From the NCBI GenBank assembly GCA_019745975.1, contig JAIESQ010000052.1, forward strand, positions 62,001 to 126,000: a stretch of DNA of 64,000 nucleotides, given 5' to 3'. The notes under the pieces were generated by a model. It did not search any database. It was given only the letters and a program-made list of their open reading frames with translations, and had not been told where the DNA came from. The translations under genes and the position numbers were made by a program. Shown here piece after piece: positions 2,838 through 44,237 of the stretch. The stretch comes from Pirellulales bacterium. Its GTDB lineage: Bacteria > Planctomycetota > Planctomycetia > Pirellulales > JAEUIK01. The first letter of the stretch is position 1, and each line of letters starts with the position of its first letter.

Positions 2838-3878
2838 TCAGGTCGCCATGGCCGTGGCGGCACTTGCGATGGTCTTGCCCAACAGTTCGGCCAATGCGCG
2901 AATTTGGGTGGCGACAGCAGCGTATTGTTGTGGCAAAAGCGCCTGCGGCCCGTCCGAAAGCGCTTCTTCCGGACAATTGTGCACTTCGATATGCACGCCG
3001 TCGGCGCCGGCCGCCACGCCTGCGAGAGCACAAGCAGGGACCAGGTCGGGCCGCCCGGTGGCATGGCTGGGGTCGACGATGATCGGCAAATGCGACAAGC
3101 TCTTGGCAAGTGGCACAGCCGCGACGTCGAACAAGTTGCGCGTGTCGGTGTCGAAACTTCGCACGCCGCGCTCGCAGAGCACCACCTGCGAGTTTCCCTG
3201 CGACATGATGTACTCGGCGCTCATCAGCAGGTCTTTGACCGTGGCGCTCATACCTCGCTTCAAGAGCACTGGCTTGCTGACGCGCCCCACTTCGGTGAGC
3301 AGCGAGAAGTTCTGCATGTTGCGAGCGCCGATCTGTAGCATGTCCGCGTATTCGGCAACTAGTTCGACATAGCGCGGGTCCATCACTTCAGTAACGACCG
3401 GCATGCCGTGCCGGTCGCCGACGTCGCGGAGGATTTTCAGGCCCGCTTCGCCGAGCCCCTGAAAGGCATATGGACTGGTACGTGGCTTGAACGCGCCGCC
3501 GCGCAGCAGATTGGCGCCCGCCTTGCGTACCTCGCCGGCGATTGCATCGAGGCGTTCGTGGCTCTCGATCGCGCACGGCCCGGCAATCATGCCCAAATGC
3601 CCGCCGCCAATCTTCACGCCGGCGACATCCACCACGCTGGGCTCACCGTGCGCTTCGCGGCTGGCAAGCTTAAAGGGGGGCAAGATCGGAATGACGTTTG
3701 CCACGCCAGGGATTGCTCCCAGCGGTGCCGATTGAAGTTGAGACTCGTCGCCGATGACGCCTATGATCGTGCGATACGTCCCGCGGCTCAGATGGGCTTG
3801 TAGCCCCAGCGCCTCGACGCGCTCGATGACATGGCGGATTTGCTCGTCGTTGACGCCCGGCTGGAGAACGATAATCAC
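2838..3878 (-). CDS. aroF: 3-deoxy-7-phosphoheptulonate synthase (DAHP synthase)
   Basis: This enzyme joins phosphoenolpyruvate and erythrose 4-phosphate, the first step of the shikimate pathway. The protein has an N-terminal ferredoxin-like domain (about residues 1-70, as in the Thermotoga type) and then the KDO8P/DAHP synthase barrel with [27 protein letters not shown] and DPSHATGR. The track starts at a TTG at 3893. I prefer the GTG at 3878 (MIIVLQPGV), which matches the usual start of this family, though no strong ribosome site is visible. It lies just downstream of pheA on the same strand, so early and late aromatic synthesis genes are adjacent. Confidence 0.9.
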
Positions 3879-4015
3879 GTCAAAACTCAACAAAAAAGCA
3901 GCTTGGGCCAGCGCGATTGGCCGCGACCAGCCTGGGCAAACAGCGGCACGCCCGACCGACGTTACGCGCCAACGCCGTTTGGGGGCTTGAGTTTAGCACG
4001 CTCAGGTGCGGTCAG

Positions 4016-5137
4016 CTACCCGATCGGCGTGCTGCGCGGGTATGATCCCAGCACTTCGAATCGCAGCGTCTTGCGCTCCAGCAGTGCCAGGGCCTTGGTC
4101 ACCCGCGTGTCGTGCTCGTGCCCTTCGCATTCGACGAAGAAGAGGTAGCCCCCTTCGGGTCGGGCGATCGGAAACGACTCGATCCAGGTCAGATTGAGCT
4201 TATAGCGCTTGAACACACTCATCGCGTCGGCCAATGAGCCCGGGCGATGGGGAATCTCGAACATCAGCGACGTCTTATCGCGGCCCGTGCGGTCGGCCGA
4301 GCGCTCGCCGATCACAGCAAACCGGGTCAGATTGTCTGGTTGGTCTTCGATGTTGGCGACCAGCACGTCGAGGCCGTAGTGCCTGGCCGCTTGGCTGCTG
4401 GCAATGGCAGCCGCGCCCGTCTTCTCTTGGGCCAGTTGCGCGGCGGTCGTCGTGCTGGCGACTTCGACGGTGCGGACAGCCGGCATATGCTTGGCCAACC
4501 AGTTCCTGCATTGACTGAGGGCCTGCGGCTTGCTGTAAACCTCGCTCACTTCACCGCGCGCGCAACGGGCTAGCAAATTGTGATGTATCCGCAGTTGGAC
4601 TTCGCCGCAAATCCGCGCTGGCAATCGCGCGAACATGTCGAGCGTGTCGGCGATGCGGCCATCGGTGGAGTTTTCCAGCGGCACCAGCCCGAACTGCGCG
4701 TGGCCCCGATTGACTTCCTCGAACACCGCCGAGATGGTGCCAACCGGAATCAGCTCGACACATTCGCCAAAACGTTGTTGGGCCGCCAAATGAGTGTAGC
4801 TGTACTCCGGGCCGAGGAACGCCACGCGCAGTTTCGTTTCCAACGCCCTCGAACCGCTGATGAGCTCGCGGAATAGCGCTCGGATGCAGTCAGGCGACAA
4901 GGGCCCGGTGTTGGCTTCGATGGCCCTGAGAATCACATCTTCCTCGCGTCCGGGGGCATAGGCCGGCTGCCCATTGGCGTCCTTGAGCTTGCCGATTTCT
5001 GCCGCAAGGCGGGCGCGCTGGTTGGCCAGCCGGACGATCTCCCGATCGAGCCGGTCGATCTGCCCGCGCAGAGCGGCCAGACTCATTGGGCGCGGCGCGG
5101 ATTTATGCCCTTTCGCGGAGGGCTTTTCCCTGGCCAT
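4016..5137 (-). CDS. pheA: bifunctional chorismate mutase/prephenate dehydratase
   Basis: The P-protein converts chorismate to prephenate and then to phenylpyruvate in phenylalanine synthesis. Domains in order: a basic N-terminal tail, an AroQ-type chorismate mutase helix domain (about 18-95, LAALRGQIDRLDREIV), a prephenate dehydratase domain (about 100-285, beginning VAFLGPEYSYTHLA and ending with the catalytic TRF motif in LTRFAVIGE), and an ACT regulatory domain (about 295-370, with RPGSLADAMSVF and IESFP). The ACT domain indicates feedback control by phenylalanine, as known for the family. The start is the ATG at 5137. It heads the minus-strand run toward the DAHP synthase gene. Confidence 0.95.
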   Translation of the reverse strand: MAREKPSAKGHKSAPRPMSLAALRGQIDRLDREIVRLANQRARLAAEIGKLKDANGQPAYAPGREEDVILRAIEANTGPLSPDCIRALFRELISGSRALETKLRVAFLGPEYSYTHLAAQQRFGECVELIPVGTISAVFEEVNRGHAQFGLVPLENSTDGRIADTLDMFARLPARICGEVQLRIHHNLLARCARGEVSEVYSKPQALSQCRNWLAKHMPAVRTVEVASTTTAAQLAQEKTGAAAIASSQAARHYGLDVLVANIEDQPDNLTRFAVIGERSADRTGRDKTSLMFEIPHRPGSLADAMSVFKRYKLNLTWIESFPIARPEGGYLFFVECEGHEHDTRVTKALALLERKTLRFEVLGSYPRSTPIG

Positions 5138-5693
5138 TCGGCGGAGTTCCCCAACACGCGACCGGCCTCAAGGCCAGACAGCGTAACGACCTACGACGGT
5201 GCGAATGCGCTTAGAAGCCGAGACCCCTTGTACTTGTGTGCATTGGGGGTGTCAAGCATCGCACGACAGCCACAATCCGTGCGTTTCGCAGGGCCAATTC
5301 CACAATCGTACTTCCGAATTTCTGGCCGCGCGAGTCGGCCGCTTCGAGACAATTTGGGGCCGTCGGATCGTCTGCCAAATTGGCAGCGGACAAGCGTCAA
5401 TCAACTGGCTCGACCGCGCTTCTGGCAGCCCCTCCCGAGGCGGATTCACGCCGTTCCTTGGCCCAACCTCGAAGGCGCTTCGCTCTAAATGCGGTTGTTT
5501 CAACCATTTGTTATAGTGACTCGCGGCGGTGCTTTACGGCACAACCTTTGCTTCCACTTCGCTGCAATCCAGGCCGCGAAGCCGATCCGCAGGCGCGGAC
5601 GGCGAAGACACGCGGCACGCGCTCCCGGCAGCGCTGAGATACACTTCCCGCGAGATCTAGCCGCACGCGAGCACGGAGAAAAAGGAGCGTTTC
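5138..5693. other. intergenic region between pheA and dnaK
   Basis: No convincing gene is present. The small ORFs listed here have no recognisable features. A short perfect inverted repeat, GGTTG-TTT-CAACC, lies at 5493-5505, followed by a TATAGT hexamer at 5512-5517 that could be a -10 element for dnaK, but I see no good -35 partner at 17 bp. I saw no CIRCE element (TTAGCACTC/GAGTGCTAA), so HrcA control of dnaK is not supported. The dnaK ribosome site AAGGAG lies 7 nt before its ATG. As pheA and dnaK diverge, both promoters must lie here. Confidence 0.5.
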
Positions 5694-7604
5694 ATGGCTC
5701 AAGGCGAAAAAATCATTGGCATCGACCTGGGTACCACCAACTCGGTCGTCGCCGTTATGGAAGGCAAAGAGGCCAAGGTCATTCCCAATGCGGAAGGCAA
5801 CCGCCTCACGCCGAGCGTAGTCGCGTTTACCGACAAGGGTGACGTGTTGGTCGGCGAACCCGCGCGCCGCCAGGCGGTCACCAATCCTACTCGTACGATC
5901 TACTCGATTAAGCGCTTCATGGGCCGCCGCCACAACGAGGTGGAAGGCGAAGAGAAGATGGTCCCCTACCAGGTCGTGGGCGGGCCGAACGACTACGTCA
6001 AAGTGCGCGTGGGCGATAAAGAGTTCACCCCTCCCGAAATCTCGGCGCTGATTCTCCGCAAGCTCAAGGAAGCTGCCGAGGCCTACCTGGGTCACAAGGT
6101 GAACAAGGCCGTGATCACGGTGCCGGCCTACTTCAACGACGCGCAGCGGCAAGCCACGAAGGACGCCGGCGAAATCGCCGGCCTCGAAGTCTCCCGCATC
6201 ATCAATGAGCCGACCGCCGCGGCCTTGGCCTACGGGCTCGACCGCAAGGAGCACGAGAAGATCGCCGTTTTCGACTTGGGCGGTGGTACGTTCGACGTTT
6301 CCGTGCTCGAAGTGGCCGATGGCGTGTTTCGCGTCATCAGCACCAACGGCGACACGCACCTGGGTGGCGACGACTTCGACGAAGTGCTTATCAACTTCGT
6401 CGCTGACGAGTTCAAGCGCGAGCAAGGGATCGATCTGCGCAAAGACACCATGGCCCTGCAGCGCTTGCAGGAAGCCTGCGAGAAGGCCAAGAAAGAGCTG
6501 AGTTCCGCCGCCTCGACCGACATCAACCTGCCGTTCATCACGGCCGACGCCAGCGGGCCCAAGCACTTGCAGATCACCATAACCCGCGCCAAGTTCGAGC
6601 AATTGGTCGATCACCTGATTGAGCGCTGCCGCGGGCCGGTGCTGCAAGCGCTCAAGGATGCCAAGTTTACGCCGAAGGATATCGACGAGGTGGTGCTCGT
6701 CGGCGGTTCGACCCGCATTCCCAAGGTGCAAGAGCTCGTCAAAAAGCTCTTCGAGAAAGAGCCGCACAAGGGCGTGAACCCCGATGAAGTCGTGGCCGTC
6801 GGCGCCGCCATTCAAGGTGGCGTGCTCGCCGGCGAAGTGAAAGACGTGCTCTTGTTGGACGTCACGCCGCTGTCGCTGGGCATCGAAACCCTCGGCGGCA
6901 TCTTCACCAAGCTCGTCGAGCGCAACACCACGATCCCCACCGAGCGGAAGCAGGTCTTCAGCACCGCCGAAGACAATCAAACCGCGGTCACGGTCCGCGT
7001 CTTCCAGGGCGAACGCGAGATGGCGGCCGACAACCGCCTCCTGGGCCAGTTCAATCTCGAAGGCATCGGCGCCGCGCCGCGCGGCATGCCGCAAATCGAA
7101 GTCAAGTTCGACATCGACCAGAACGGCATTTTGAATGTCTCGGCCAAGGACCTCGGCACCGGCAAGCAGCAAACCGTCCGCATCGAGCAGTCGAGCGGCC
7201 TGTCTGACACCGAGATCGAACGGATGCGCAAGGACGCCGAGTCGCATGCGGCCGAAGACAAGAAACGCCGCGAGCTAGCCGAACAGCGCAACGAAATCGA
7301 GTCGCGCGCCTTCCAAATGGAAAAGCTCCTCAAGGAAAACGAAGCGAAGCTAGGCGCCGCAGACAAACAGGCGACCGAGGCGGCGATCTCCCGTGCTCGC
7401 GAAACCGCCAAAGGCGACGACATCGAGAAGCTCAAGTCGGCCAATCACGAGCTCGATCAGGCCAATCAGGCGCTCAGCCGCGCCCTGTATCAGGGGGGTG
7501 GCGCAGGCGCCACGGGCCCGCAGGCGGCCGGTGGCGGCAATGGCGCAGGGGGCACCAAGCCCGACGACGTCATCGACGCCGAGTTTGAGGTCAAAGACTC
7601 GTAA
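5694..7604 (+). CDS. dnaK: molecular chaperone DnaK (Hsp70)
   Basis: DnaK is the ATP-driven Hsp70 chaperone of the cytoplasm. The 636-residue protein has the ATPase domain signatures [18 protein letters not shown] at the N-terminus, [15 protein letters not shown] and [13 protein letters not shown], then the substrate-binding beta domain ([11 protein letters not shown]) and the helical lid. It ends with a Gly-rich linker and an acidic [12 protein letters not shown] tail, as usual. An AAGGAG site lies 7 nt upstream of the ATG. Unlike the common layout, grpE and dnaJ are not adjacent. clpB follows after about 190 bp, so the two disaggregation partners are neighbours. Confidence 0.98.
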
Positions 7605-41259: not shown

Positions 41260-42531
41260 ATGGCGGCCCGAGACATTGTGATCACTGGCATCGGGGTCGT
41301 CACGCCGATCGGCATCGGTCGCGAAGCCTTCTGGAGCGCGCTCTTGGCCGGCCGCAGTGGGGTCGGCCCAATCACGAGCTTCGACCCACGAGGGCTGCAA
41401 GTTCGCATCGCCGGCGAAGTGCACGACTTCGATCCCAAGCAATACGTCAAGCCGCGCAAGAGCCTGAAAGTGATGTCGCGCGACTCCCAGTTCGCGGTGA
41501 CCGCGGCCGATCTGGCCTGGGACGACGCCGGCCTGGCCGCTGGCACGCTCGACCCGGAACGCATCGGGGCTGTGCTCGGCGCCGAGCGAATTCGCAATGA
41601 ATTCAGCGATATCGAAGCCGCCTATCGCGCCTGCGGCGTCGAGGGTCGCTTCGAACCAGGGCTCTGGCCGACCCGCGGTGCGCCCGAGGGATACCCGCTC
41701 ATGCTGCTCAAAAACCTTCCCAACATGCTGGGGAGTTTCATTTCGATCCTCAAGGACGCCCGCGGCCCCAACAACACCATTTGCCAGGCCGAAGCAGGGA
41801 GTTTGCTGGCGATCGGAGAAGCGGCCGCCTGCCTCCAACGTGGCGCTGCCGACGCGATGATTGCCGGCGGCGCCACCTCGCGCATGCATCCGATCGATTG
41901 GGTCCGGGCCGAACTGATGGATGAACTATCGCACGAAGTCGACAACCCGACGTCGGCCTCGCGGCCTTTCGACGCCCGCCGCAGCGGCCAGGTGCGCGGC
42001 GAAGGGGGAGCGCTGTTCGTCCTCGAAACGCGCGAGCATGCCGCGGCGCGCGGCGCGCGAATTCTGGGGCACGTGCTAAGTTGGGCGTCGTCGGCAGCAA
42101 TACCCGCTGGCAGCGCGGCCGCGCTGCCGGCCGCCATTGAGCGCACGATCCTCGCAGCGCTTAAGAGTGCAAGGCTCGATTCATCGCAGCTTGCGTTTGT
42201 CAGCGCGCACGGCCTGAGTACACGCAAGCACGATGCGATCGAGGCCCTAGCCCTGCGCGCCGCGATCGGCGCACGACCGGTCGTCGCCTTCAAGAGCTAC
42301 TTTGGCAACCTGCTGGCGGCAGGCGGGGCGGTCGAGTTAGCTGCGGCCATCCTGGCTATCAACGAAGGATTGCTCCCCCCCACGCTCAACTACGAAGTGC
42401 CCGATCCAAGCTGCCCGATTGAAGTCGTGCACGGCGAGCCGTTGCGCCACGGTGGCGCTGCGGCACTGGCATTGAACTTCACCGCGGCGGGCCAGGTGGC
42501 GGCAGTCGTCGTGGCTCCAGCGCAGTCCTGA
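41260..42531 (+). CDS. ketosynthase-fold protein lacking the catalytic Cys
   Basis: The 423-residue protein aligns along its length with FabF-type beta-ketoacyl synthases (VITGIGVVTPIGIGREAFW at the start). A gapless match to the FabF nucleophile region reads NNTICQAEAGSLLAIGEAA against the FabF sequence around TACTSG. The catalytic Cys position is Glu178. The first active-site His is present (AHGLST, His317) and the Lys (FKSYFG, Lys345), but the second His is Asn350 in FKSYFGNLLAAGGA. It cannot condense in the usual way. It may be a chain-length factor-like partner or a decarboxylase. The 16-bp gap to queD separates convergent genes. Confidence 0.8.
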   Translation: MAARDIVITGIGVVTPIGIGREAFWSALLAGRSGVGPITSFDPRGLQVRIAGEVHDFDPKQYVKPRKSLKVMSRDSQFAVTAADLAWDDAGLAAGTLDPERIGAVLGAERIRNEFSDIEAAYRACGVEGRFEPGLWPTRGAPEGYPLMLLKNLPNMLGSFISILKDARGPNNTICQAEAGSLLAIGEAAACLQRGAADAMIAGGATSRMHPIDWVRAELMDELSHEVDNPTSASRPFDARRSGQVRGEGGALFVLETREHAAARGARILGHVLSWASSAAIPAGSAAALPAAIERTILAALKSARLDSSQLAFVSAHGLSTRKHDAIEALALRAAIGARPVVAFKSYFGNLLAAGGAVELAAAILAINEGLLPPTLNYEVPDPSCPIEVVHGEPLRHGGAAALALNFTAAGQVAAVVVAPAQS

Positions 42532-42546
42532 CAACCCCAAATCGAC

Positions 42547-43038
42547 TCATTCGTCGACGAGCTCGCAGACGCCCACCTGCCCTTCGCACTCGTCGACCGC
42601 GATCCGCACGCGCTGCGGACGAAGGCTATAGCGCGTCTGCAAATCGTCCAGTAAGCGACGGCCGATGTGCCTGGCCAACAGCTCGGCCGTGGTGTTGGCC
42701 ACCGGCAACAGCACGCAATCGCCGCGAGGAAATACCCAGCGGCGATCTTCGAAGCGAGCTTCCACCTCACGCTCGTCGGCACGCACGTGAATCTGTGGGT
42801 GCTCGGTCGGCAGCAGCATGTGGTGATCGAGCTCAAGCACAATCTCGCGCAACAAATCGCGCAGGGCAATGAAGTCGACGACGTAGTGATTCTCGTCCAA
42901 CGGGCCGGCGACCTCCGCCGTCACCCGATAGTTGTGCCCGTGCAGCCGCTCGCACGTGCCGCCGGCGAAGGTAATAAAATGCCCGGCGCTAAAGACCAGA
43001 TAGTCTTTGGTGAGGCGAACCCAGTAAGACTCGGACAC
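42547..43038 (-). CDS. queD: 6-carboxytetrahydropterin synthase-like protein
   Basis: The 163-residue protein belongs to the PTPS/QueD family, which act on dihydroneopterin triphosphate in queuosine or pterin synthesis. The zinc His ligands are seen in FSAGHF and HGHNY, and the catalytic Cys in CERLHGH. DFIALRDLLREIVLELDHHMLL carries the conserved Asp-His pair. The Glu near the C-terminus (VRIAVDECEG) is also kept. QueD and PTPS cannot be told apart with certainty by reading alone. It is downstream of the citG-like gene on the minus strand (18 bp), so the two may be cotranscribed. Confidence 0.85.
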   Translation of the reverse strand: MSESYWVRLTKDYLVFSAGHFITFAGGTCERLHGHNYRVTAEVAGPLDENHYVVDFIALRDLLREIVLELDHHMLLPTEHPQIHVRADEREVEARFEDRRWVFPRGDCVLLPVANTTAELLARHIGRRLLDDLQTRYSLRPQRVRIAVDECEGQVGVCELVDE

Positions 43039-43056
43039 GAGGCGATTCCCAGGCGG

Positions 43057-43920
43057 CTAGAACTTCAGCGGCATTTCGATTATGCCGTCCCGCAAGGCCG
43101 CGAACAAACCGGCCGCCAGCAGGTCGGCGGTCGTTCCGGGATTACGGCGATGCCCGTCCGATCGCAGCCAGAAATCGAGCTCGGCGACGATTTCTTCGTG
43201 AGCATCTTCGCCCGGCGGGCCGGCCGCCAGCGCCGCGCGCGCTAGCGCCGACGCCTGCTCGGCGATTGCCAAGCCACATTTGCGGGCGATCAAGCTGTCG
43301 GGAAACTCAGCGAGCAGCCGCAATTGAGCGGTTCGCACGGCCTGCACCAGTCCACGCCCTTGGTTCATTTCGCCGGCCAGCCAGGGCACGACCATGCTGA
43401 GGACTTCGGCGAAGTTGTTCGCGTACTGGCGCGCAACCAGGTCGCGATCCGCTGCCAGCCGCATTGCAGCTAGCAGATCGGCCGGCGGATCATCGGCCAC
43501 ATCGGCCTGATCGACGCGCCCCAGCCCGCCCGCCTGGGCCAGTCGTATCGCTTCGTAGACGCATCGCGCATCGGTCGCGTCGAGCTCGGCGAGCACACGA
43601 ACGACGCCTGTCGCCAACGGCGCCTCGCGCGGCACTTTGGCCAATGGCGCCATGAGCATCAGCGTGCCGAGATTCGTATTCGTGGCGACCGCCAGGCGCG
43701 TGCTGGCCACGGCAGTGAGAATCGTTTCACCGACCCTTCGCGCCGGAGCCGCCTCAATGATCGGTGCGATGAGCCCGGCGGCCGCCGCGAAATGATAGAA
43801 GGTGACGTTCTCGAAATCGGCCCCCCGATGGACGTTGCCCGGCTTGGGGATGCTCACCTCCAAGAGACACGCTAGCGAGGCGCATTGGCCGAGTGTCAAA
43901 GAATGTCGTTGCACGATCAC
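43057..43920 (-). CDS. triphosphoribosyl-dephospho-CoA synthase family protein
   Basis: The 287-residue protein matches the CitG/MdcB family, which make the prosthetic-group precursor of citrate lyase and malonate decarboxylase from dephospho-CoA and ATP. The signature is LACLLEVSIPKPGNVHRG, and the middle contains NTNLGTLMLMAPLA. The start is the GTG at 43920, which overlaps the stop of the preceding gene (GTGA), a strong sign of coupling. The track's much longer start is antisense to nothing useful and rich in Arg. No citrate lyase gene is near. In planctomycetes and archaea, such CitG homologues often stand alone and their role is unclear. Confidence 0.85.
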   Translation of the reverse strand: MIVQRHSLTLGQCASLACLLEVSIPKPGNVHRGADFENVTFYHFAAAAGLIAPIIEAAPARRVGETILTAVASTRLAVATNTNLGTLMLMAPLAKVPREAPLATGVVRVLAELDATDARCVYEAIRLAQAGGLGRVDQADVADDPPADLLAAMRLAADRDLVARQYANNFAEVLSMVVPWLAGEMNQGRGLVQAVRTAQLRLLAEFPDSLIARKCGLAIAEQASALARAALAAGPPGEDAHEEIVAELDFWLRSDGHRRNPGTTADLLAAGLFAALRDGIIEMPLKF

Positions 43921-44237
43921 GAACCTGGGGTGTCGCCGTCGGCGGTTGCTTCGCCGTTGTCGCCTCCGCTGGGGCCAGTATGTCGATCGCGCGATTCGAT
44001 TCCTAGTGCCTCGGGCCACTCGGCCAAGTCGCCTTCCGCCACTAGCGGCAGTCCGTCGAGCAATCGCTGCAGTTCGGCCACCAGCACCAGAAGCATCACC
44101 ATCGTTAGCGCTGGATAAACGGCACATCCGAGCACGTCCGACTCGAGCGCGGCGCAGAGTACGCTAAGCGTCGTACCTAGCGCGAACAGGGGTCGCAGTC
44201 GCTTCGTCCCGCTTGGCAGCACTGGCAGCGAGTTCAC
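43917..44237 (-). CDS. small membrane protein of unknown function
   Basis: The 106-residue protein starts at a GTG at 44237 with GGAG 7 nt upstream. It has hydrophobic stretches at about residues 15-32 and 40-57 (PALTMVMLLVLVAELQRLL), then an acidic C-terminal half ending GDTPGS. The stop overlaps the start of the citG-like gene. No family is recognised, and the coupling is the best evidence that it is real. Confidence 0.6.
   Translation of the reverse strand: MNSLPVLPSGTKRLRPLFALGTTLSVLCAALESDVLGCAVYPALTMVMLLVLVAELQRLLDGLPLVAEGDLAEWPEALGIESRDRHTGPSGGDNGEATADGDTPGS

Follow-up and report, generated by a model that had tools for sequence, protein, structure and literature searches.

A cysteine-less ketosynthase-fold protein of Pirellulales as a candidate docking partner of a Cys-bearing ketosynthase

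Introduction

Pairs of a ketosynthase (KS) and a chain-length factor (CLF) are known from polyketide synthesis. In the actinobacterial type II polyketide synthases, a Cys-less paralogue is found in tandem with a Cys-bearing KS and an acyl carrier protein (ACP), and in KSQ loading domains the Cys of the KS fold is replaced by Gln. Among planctomycetes, Rattray et al. 2009 described two FabF paralogues of Rhodopirellula baltica, RB4527 (Glu163, His298, Lys328 and Asn333) and RB3714 (Asp163), and argued that such paralogues are incapable of normal elongation (PMC2649909). No partner, pair operon or docking role was proposed for them in that paper. The rhizobial AcpXL-FabZXL-FabF2XL-FabF1XL cluster combines a dedicated ACP and a dehydratase with two adjacent FabF genes and serves the very long chain fatty acids of lipid A (PMC11901934). 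The structure of AcpP with FabF shows Lys65, Arg68 and Lys69 of FabF touching the carrier protein, and most of the ACP contacts come from the monomer that is not linked to or served by that ACP; the GFGG loop with Phe400 controls the entry of substrate and contributes to the oxyanion hole (PMC7138838).

Here we analyse a gene of the KS fold in a 64,000-nucleotide stretch of a Pirellulales genome (the window; all feature coordinates refer to it). The encoded protein has the residues reported for RB4527, with Glu at the Cys site, Asn at the second His and the His and Lys kept, and RB3714 shares the acidic replacement.

Results

A complete ketosynthase fold without the FabF signature

The ATG at 41260 opens a single intact frame in translation.

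41260..42531, plus strand: KS-beta-like gene (group 1), ketosynthase fold without the catalytic Cys, 423 aa

Both Pfam domains of the KS fold are present, PF00109 (ketoacyl-synt) with 136.3 bits and PF02801 (Ketoacyl-synt_C) with 68.5 bits, each above the gathering score of 20.8, and they jointly cover residues 4-379. Because the AlphaFold2 model is confident along the entire chain (mean pLDDT 93.5, pTM 0.93, alignment of 33 sequences) and its best matches among solved structures are those of FabF (TM about 0.9), the protein is not truncated, as the original prediction had held. The nearest solved relatives are FabF-type ketosynthases with about 30-37% identity. FabF (beta-ketoacyl-ACP synthase II, KAS II) has the same fold, length and general alignment but differs in possessing the Cys, the second His and the GFGG gate, all three of which are replaced in the window protein (Glu178, Asn350 and FTAAGQ). 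The NCBIfam FabF equivalog TIGR03150 scores 291.6 bits, which falls under its cut-off of 493.75. Among solved structures, PDB entry 9s5h contains two different ketosynthase chains.

Active-site residues

Residues were mapped with E. coli MG1655 FabF and solved FabF structures as the reference, using the FabF literature numbering. In these alignments, which are gapless near the sites, Cys163 corresponds to Glu178, His303 to His317, Lys335 to Lys345 and His340 to Asn350, and the assignment originally made for these four positions is thereby borne out. The neighbouring Cys175, which might have been thought to shift into the nucleophile position, cannot be placed there because the nucleophile region (GPNNTICQAEAGS vs GPSISIATACTSG) aligns gap-free. 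The features below are given with their counts among 153 Cys-less homologues, which were compared with 83 Cys-bearing rows.

41791..41793, plus strand: Glu178 codon, replacing the FabF nucleophile Cys163 (E 88, D 59, S 3, N 2, G 1)
42208..42210, plus strand: His317 codon (FabF His303), kept (retained in 128/153, lost in 25/153)
42292..42294, plus strand: Lys345 codon (FabF Lys335), kept (retained in 146/153)
42307..42309, plus strand: Asn350 codon, replacing FabF His340 (N 89, H 40, others 24)
42478..42495, plus strand: FTAAGQ (residues 407-412), where FabF has its gating and oxyanion loop FGFGG(Q/T) (GFGG in 0/153 Cys-less proteins and in 83/83 Cys-bearing rows)

Glu or Asp occupies the nucleophile site in 147 of the 153 Cys-less homologues, so that Glu178 is not a chance replacement. 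The second-His position is far more variable, with 11 different residues across the Cys-less proteins and a residue other than His in 113 of the 153. The buried Glu359, equivalent to FabF Glu349, is kept in 146/153. In addition to the changes predicted at the outset, Phe400 is lost together with the GFGG loop, as is Thr305 (Leu319 here), and Phe202 of FabF is not conserved within the Cys-less group. In three loci (L286 8214-9614, L287 8595-9968 and L289 8420-9718), the Cys-less members are even without the Lys345 equivalent and carry Thr or Leu.

A single Cys-less clade across the planctomycetes

In a tree of 158 sequences, inferred by quick tree searches and with support given as SH-aLRT only, all planctomycete Cys-less proteins form one clade (SH-aLRT 100), within which group 1, including the window protein, is also supported at 100. 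The sister of this clade is a Cys-bearing group that includes the upstream genes of family f37, described below. In the Cys-less clade, the deep branches consist of members found in tandem with a Cys-bearing ketosynthase, termed KS-alpha; groups 1 and 2 both arise inside the clade. We define this clade, of the kind reported for R. baltica, by Glu or Asp at the Cys site, retained equivalents of FabF Lys335 and Glu349, loss of GFGG and common descent, and the window protein shows every one of these features (E178, K345, E359 and FTAAGQ).

The counts of residue changes do not represent independent events, since most of them trace to shared ancestry. At the nucleophile site, E and D have been exchanged at least 22 times on the tree. 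The Glu-His-Lys-Asn set is invariant in 22/22 group 2 proteins, and Glu-His-Lys-Asn-Glu is conserved across orthologues of ~50% identity. A linkage of E or D at 178 with N or H at 350, as packing compensation might produce, was suggested by the raw counts (E-N 66, D-H 30) and was dropped, being unsupported by independent tree pairs (sign test, median p = 1).

Across 58 genomes of the window's order, whole-genome searches recover group 1 orthologues in 53, with about 43-55% identity, and the second Cys-less group, group 2, in nearly all. With Glu or Asp at the nucleophile site throughout most of the clade and Asn at the second His in 89/153, the window protein is not a lone variant, a point that the original prediction had left to be checked. 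The genomes of the order also hold two Cys-bearing ketosynthases, the housekeeping FabF and KS-alpha; in the window's genome (G000), the window gene lies on contig C200, group 2 on C128, FabF on C146 and KS-alpha on C73. Identity within group 1 is 50-54% and within group 2 58-63%, compared with 71-79% within KS-alpha, so that the Cys-less groups diverge faster.

Two side observations concern the same sequences. A C-terminal remnant (G000:C159:3349-3564, minus strand; L019 1495-1734) shares 87% identity with the group 2 protein of the same genome; the remainder of the gene is absent, and the fragment represents a decayed duplicate. Four sequences titled Candidatus Kuenenia stuttgartiensis (L109, L111, L112 and L121) carry group 1 genes close to the Pirellulales type, and that of L112 nests among the Pirellulales-type sequences in the tree; the titles are probably wrong.

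Tandem operons and gene neighbourhoods

In seven other families of the phylum (f21, f23, f24, f25, f26, f48 and f62), a Cys-less gene lies directly upstream of the Cys-bearing KS-alpha, and the two genes often overlap or sit within about 130 bases of each other. The usual gene order is dehydratase-(FabG)-ACP-dehydratase-KSbeta-KSalpha, with two dehydratases and a dedicated ACP of ~130 aa, and the tandem is located inside such an operon in f21, f23, f24, f25, f26 and f48. The adjacent ketosynthases of f62 are separated by a wider gap, and an ACP is not seen beside them. A Cys-less gene accompanied by an ACP and dehydratases is also present in G148 (f58), where the contig end cuts the next ketosynthase. 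Family f37 includes three genomes (L252, L253 and L254) whose upstream tandem gene still has the Cys and both His, so that both members are Cys-His-His.

In the window's order, the group 1 gene is unlinked from KS-alpha. The earlier observation that the window holds no second ketosynthase is not contradicted; however, a candidate partner exists outside the window, because the genome carries a KS-alpha operon on contig C73. Read directly, this operon comprises a dehydratase (3531-4016), a 130-aa ACP (4147-4539), a second dehydratase (4560-5084) and KS-alpha (5241-6521). No ACP is near the window gene, and the KS-alpha on C73 has its own. Five of the 58 genomes hold KS-alpha without group 1 (G014, G021, G031, G038 and G056), and none of the 58 was found with KS-alpha but with neither Cys-less group. 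The KS-alpha of G055, whose initial absence had seemed to speak against pairing, is split at a contig end and was found at a lower threshold.

Within the order, six loci have group 2 close to FabF, and in f22 the two genes are neighbours. Of 90 group 1 loci, 15 (e.g. L054, L055, L060, L063, L066, L067 and L069) have a divergently transcribed fatty acid desaturase as their upstream neighbour, and in a few loci another desaturase precedes the group 1 gene. The window neighbours CinA, PTPS and CitG were considered as pathway partners and dropped, since other genomes do not repeat this arrangement next to group 1. The PTPS homologue is located beside a homologue of CitG-type triphosphoribosyl-dephospho-CoA synthase (42547-44127, minus strand). 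A conserved protein of ~370-550 aa occurs in the FabF/group 2 interval of the fab operon or just 5' of group 2 in ten loci (L071, L073, L075, L077, L078, L079, L083, L084, L086 and L087). Contigs C86 and C117 of the window's genome each contain a giant frame (6190 and 5041 aa) that includes ketosynthase domains and resembles a type I polyketide synthase, and many such genes are present in this genome.

In other orders, genes for an alpha/beta-hydrolase and a GH3-like ligase come after the tandem pair; the two proteins are distant relatives of the ornithine-lipid enzymes OlsI and OlsH (PMC12493201). A link to ornithine lipids was rejected, as these genes score 86-144 bits against an OlsH cut-off of 620. 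The window's genome has no OlsH match and no GH3-like ligases, and for both reasons no lipid product is claimed.

Complementary loss of the docking patch

The positions of FabF that contact the carrier protein correspond to a basic segment of the window protein.

41449..41481, plus strand: KPRKSLKVMSR (residues 64-74), basic segment where FabF has its ACP-docking residues Lys65/Arg68/Lys69 (from basic-residue counts)

FabF positions 65 and 68 are both basic in 17/19 tandem KS-beta, 111/112 group 1 and 22/22 group 2 proteins (150/153 Cys-less proteins overall) and in 9/9 FabF, compared with 2/48 KS-alpha proteins; the KS-alpha on C73 of the window's genome is among those that have lost the patch. 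The mean net charge over FabF 60-72 is +5.0 in tandem KS-beta, +4.6 in group 1, +3.8 in group 2 and -0.5 in KS-alpha. As one search pattern contained the docking motif, the loci L093-L171 are biased for these lysines, and the counts were repeated without them; among the remaining proteins, from the whole-genome searches, a basic residue occupies position 65 in 73/73 and position 68 in 70/73, and the result stands. In f37 (L252 and L254), the docking lysines are found in the upstream member only and the downstream KS-alpha is already without the patch; these pairs show the docking split ahead of any loss of the Cys. The f37 tandem is a possible evolutionary intermediate.

KS-alpha and the Cys-less proteins also have a segment in common.

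41596..41664, plus strand: insertion of ~13 aa shared with KS-alpha and absent from FabF, at approximately residues 113-135 (from segment lengths)

The segment corresponding to FabF 104-163 has 59 aa in FabF and a median of 72-73 aa in KS-alpha and in every Cys-less group.

Comparison with the described systems

Two Streptomyces CLFs (L192 and L193), fetched with their annotation, were aligned and placed in the tree. They have Gln at the Cys site, where the window protein has Glu178, together with Asp at the first His and Arg at the second. The CLFs fall with FabF and the polyketide KS across well supported branches, outside the Cys-less clade, which indicates that the planctomycete Cys loss is separate from that of the classical CLF. 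Homologues in the seven tandem families lie directly beside KS-alpha, as a CLF does beside its KS, whereas the window gene does not. CLF systems make polyketides, whereas the planctomycete operon resembles fatty-acid synthesis; the working of the two pairs would be similar if the heterodimer proposed below is real. The rhizobial AcpXL cluster is alike in gene content but has one dehydratase only, compared with two in the planctomycete operon. KSQ domains carry Gln with both His, whereas the window protein has Glu178 and Asn350, stands alone and has no acyltransferase or ACP in its chain.

Discussion

The Cys and the GFGG gate are lost from one member of the pair and the docking lysines from the other, a complementary pattern that suggests a KS-alpha/KS-beta heterodimer. 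A KS-alpha homodimer without the patch seems unable to dock its own ACP in the manner of FabF, and the Cys-less protein, judged from its residues, could dock an ACP but not condense. We therefore favour, with a probability of about 0.58, the reading that the window protein is a KS-beta, catalytically dead, that works as a heterodimer with a Cys-bearing KS-alpha and supplies its docking surface. KS-alpha would provide Cys-His-His and the GFGG gate and form the C-C bond, and KS-beta would provide a surface rich in lysine for docking of the ACP, whose arm would swing into the KS-alpha active site. Because the ~13-aa insertion before the nucleophile is common to both proteins and absent from FabF, KS-beta may wall one side of the KS-alpha acyl tunnel, as is probable, and may in this way influence chain length. 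The active site of KS-beta itself would be vacant, with the Glu or Asp probably forming a salt bridge to the buried Lys345 as a structural plug, Glu359 being kept. The operon can be read as a fatty-acid-type chain extension with reduction and dehydration.

The partner of the window protein in its own genome would most likely be G000:C73:5241-6521, possibly another ketosynthase. Since five genomes with KS-alpha have no group 1, group 2 (C128) may be the main partner of KS-alpha and is an equally good or better candidate than group 1. FabF is another possible partner, because group 2 lies near it in several genomes. It is a real if rather unlikely possibility that the window protein instead serves an enzyme other than KS-alpha, such as housekeeping FabF or a desaturase system for fatty acids, whether as a docking or structural partner, as an acyl-ACP binder or as a regulator. 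The lack of linkage to KS-alpha in the window's order, the desaturases next to some group 1 genes, the position of group 2 near FabF and the five genomes without group 1 are all compatible with such a role. However, FabF retains the docking lysines in 9/9 and does not evidently need a partner, whereas KS-alpha has lost its own, and every deep Cys-less branch is in tandem with KS-alpha except one at a contig end. Loss of all function in the window's genome, as a decaying paralogue, would fit the fast divergence, the absence of linkage to a pathway here and the loss of group 1 in five relatives; it is nevertheless very improbable given the intact frame, the confident fold, the near-invariant docking lysines and the Glu-His-Lys-Asn-Glu set conserved at ~50% identity.

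The retained acid deserves separate consideration, as its persistence through at least 22 E/D exchanges is more than simple drift of a dead site would predict. In KAS III the catalytic triad is Cys-His-Asn, with Asn at the second-His position. This precedent, the acid kept in 147/153 and the invariant Glu-His-Lys-Asn of group 2 would be in keeping with a homodimer of new chemistry, in which Glu or Asp, together with His317, the Lys and Asn350, serves as general base or nucleophile on an acyl-ACP, in neither condensation nor decarboxylation. Such an activity is improbable, as E and D swap freely and S, N or G also occur at the site, the first His is lost in 25/153, the second position accepts 11 residue types, and the GFGG oxyanion loop is gone from all Cys-less proteins. 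Among the three roles originally offered (decarboxylase, structural partner or new binding function), that of a structural partner gains from the tandems in seven families and the complementary loss, and that of a decarboxylase loses ground, with GFGG lost in 153/153, the second His kept in 40/153 and the first His lost in 25/153. A malonyl-ACP decarboxylase giving acetyl-ACP for priming, like KSQ domains or FabF Cys-to-Gln mutants, would agree with a polar residue in place of the Cys and with the kept His317 and Lys345, and a primer-making activity would suit an accessory ketosynthase. Decarboxylation by FabB and FabF is, however, held to require both His (PMC2649909), and the second is absent in 113/153, the window protein included; Thr305 and Phe202 are lost as well as the GFGG loop, and the genome has a FabH above its NCBIfam cut-off that would be available for ordinary priming. 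A decarboxylase role is thus unlikely on the residues, and its overall probability is very low.

The loss of the Cys has been known since 2009 from R. baltica, and a division of labour between catalysis and docking appears not to have been described previously; a literature search, with most subscription papers outside its coverage, found no paper on such a pair of a Cys-less protein and KS-alpha in planctomycetes. Sequence similarity alone would label this gene family as beta-ketoacyl-ACP synthase. If the KS-beta reading is true, the planctomycete phylum saw a separate origin of a Cys-less KS partner, within an operon like those of fatty-acid synthesis, and an intermediate stage would survive in f37, where both members have the Cys and the docking patch is upstream only. 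The pattern is a test case for how two paralogues can share out catalysis and carrier-protein docking. It also hints at what a gene family present in nearly every genome of the window's order may do.
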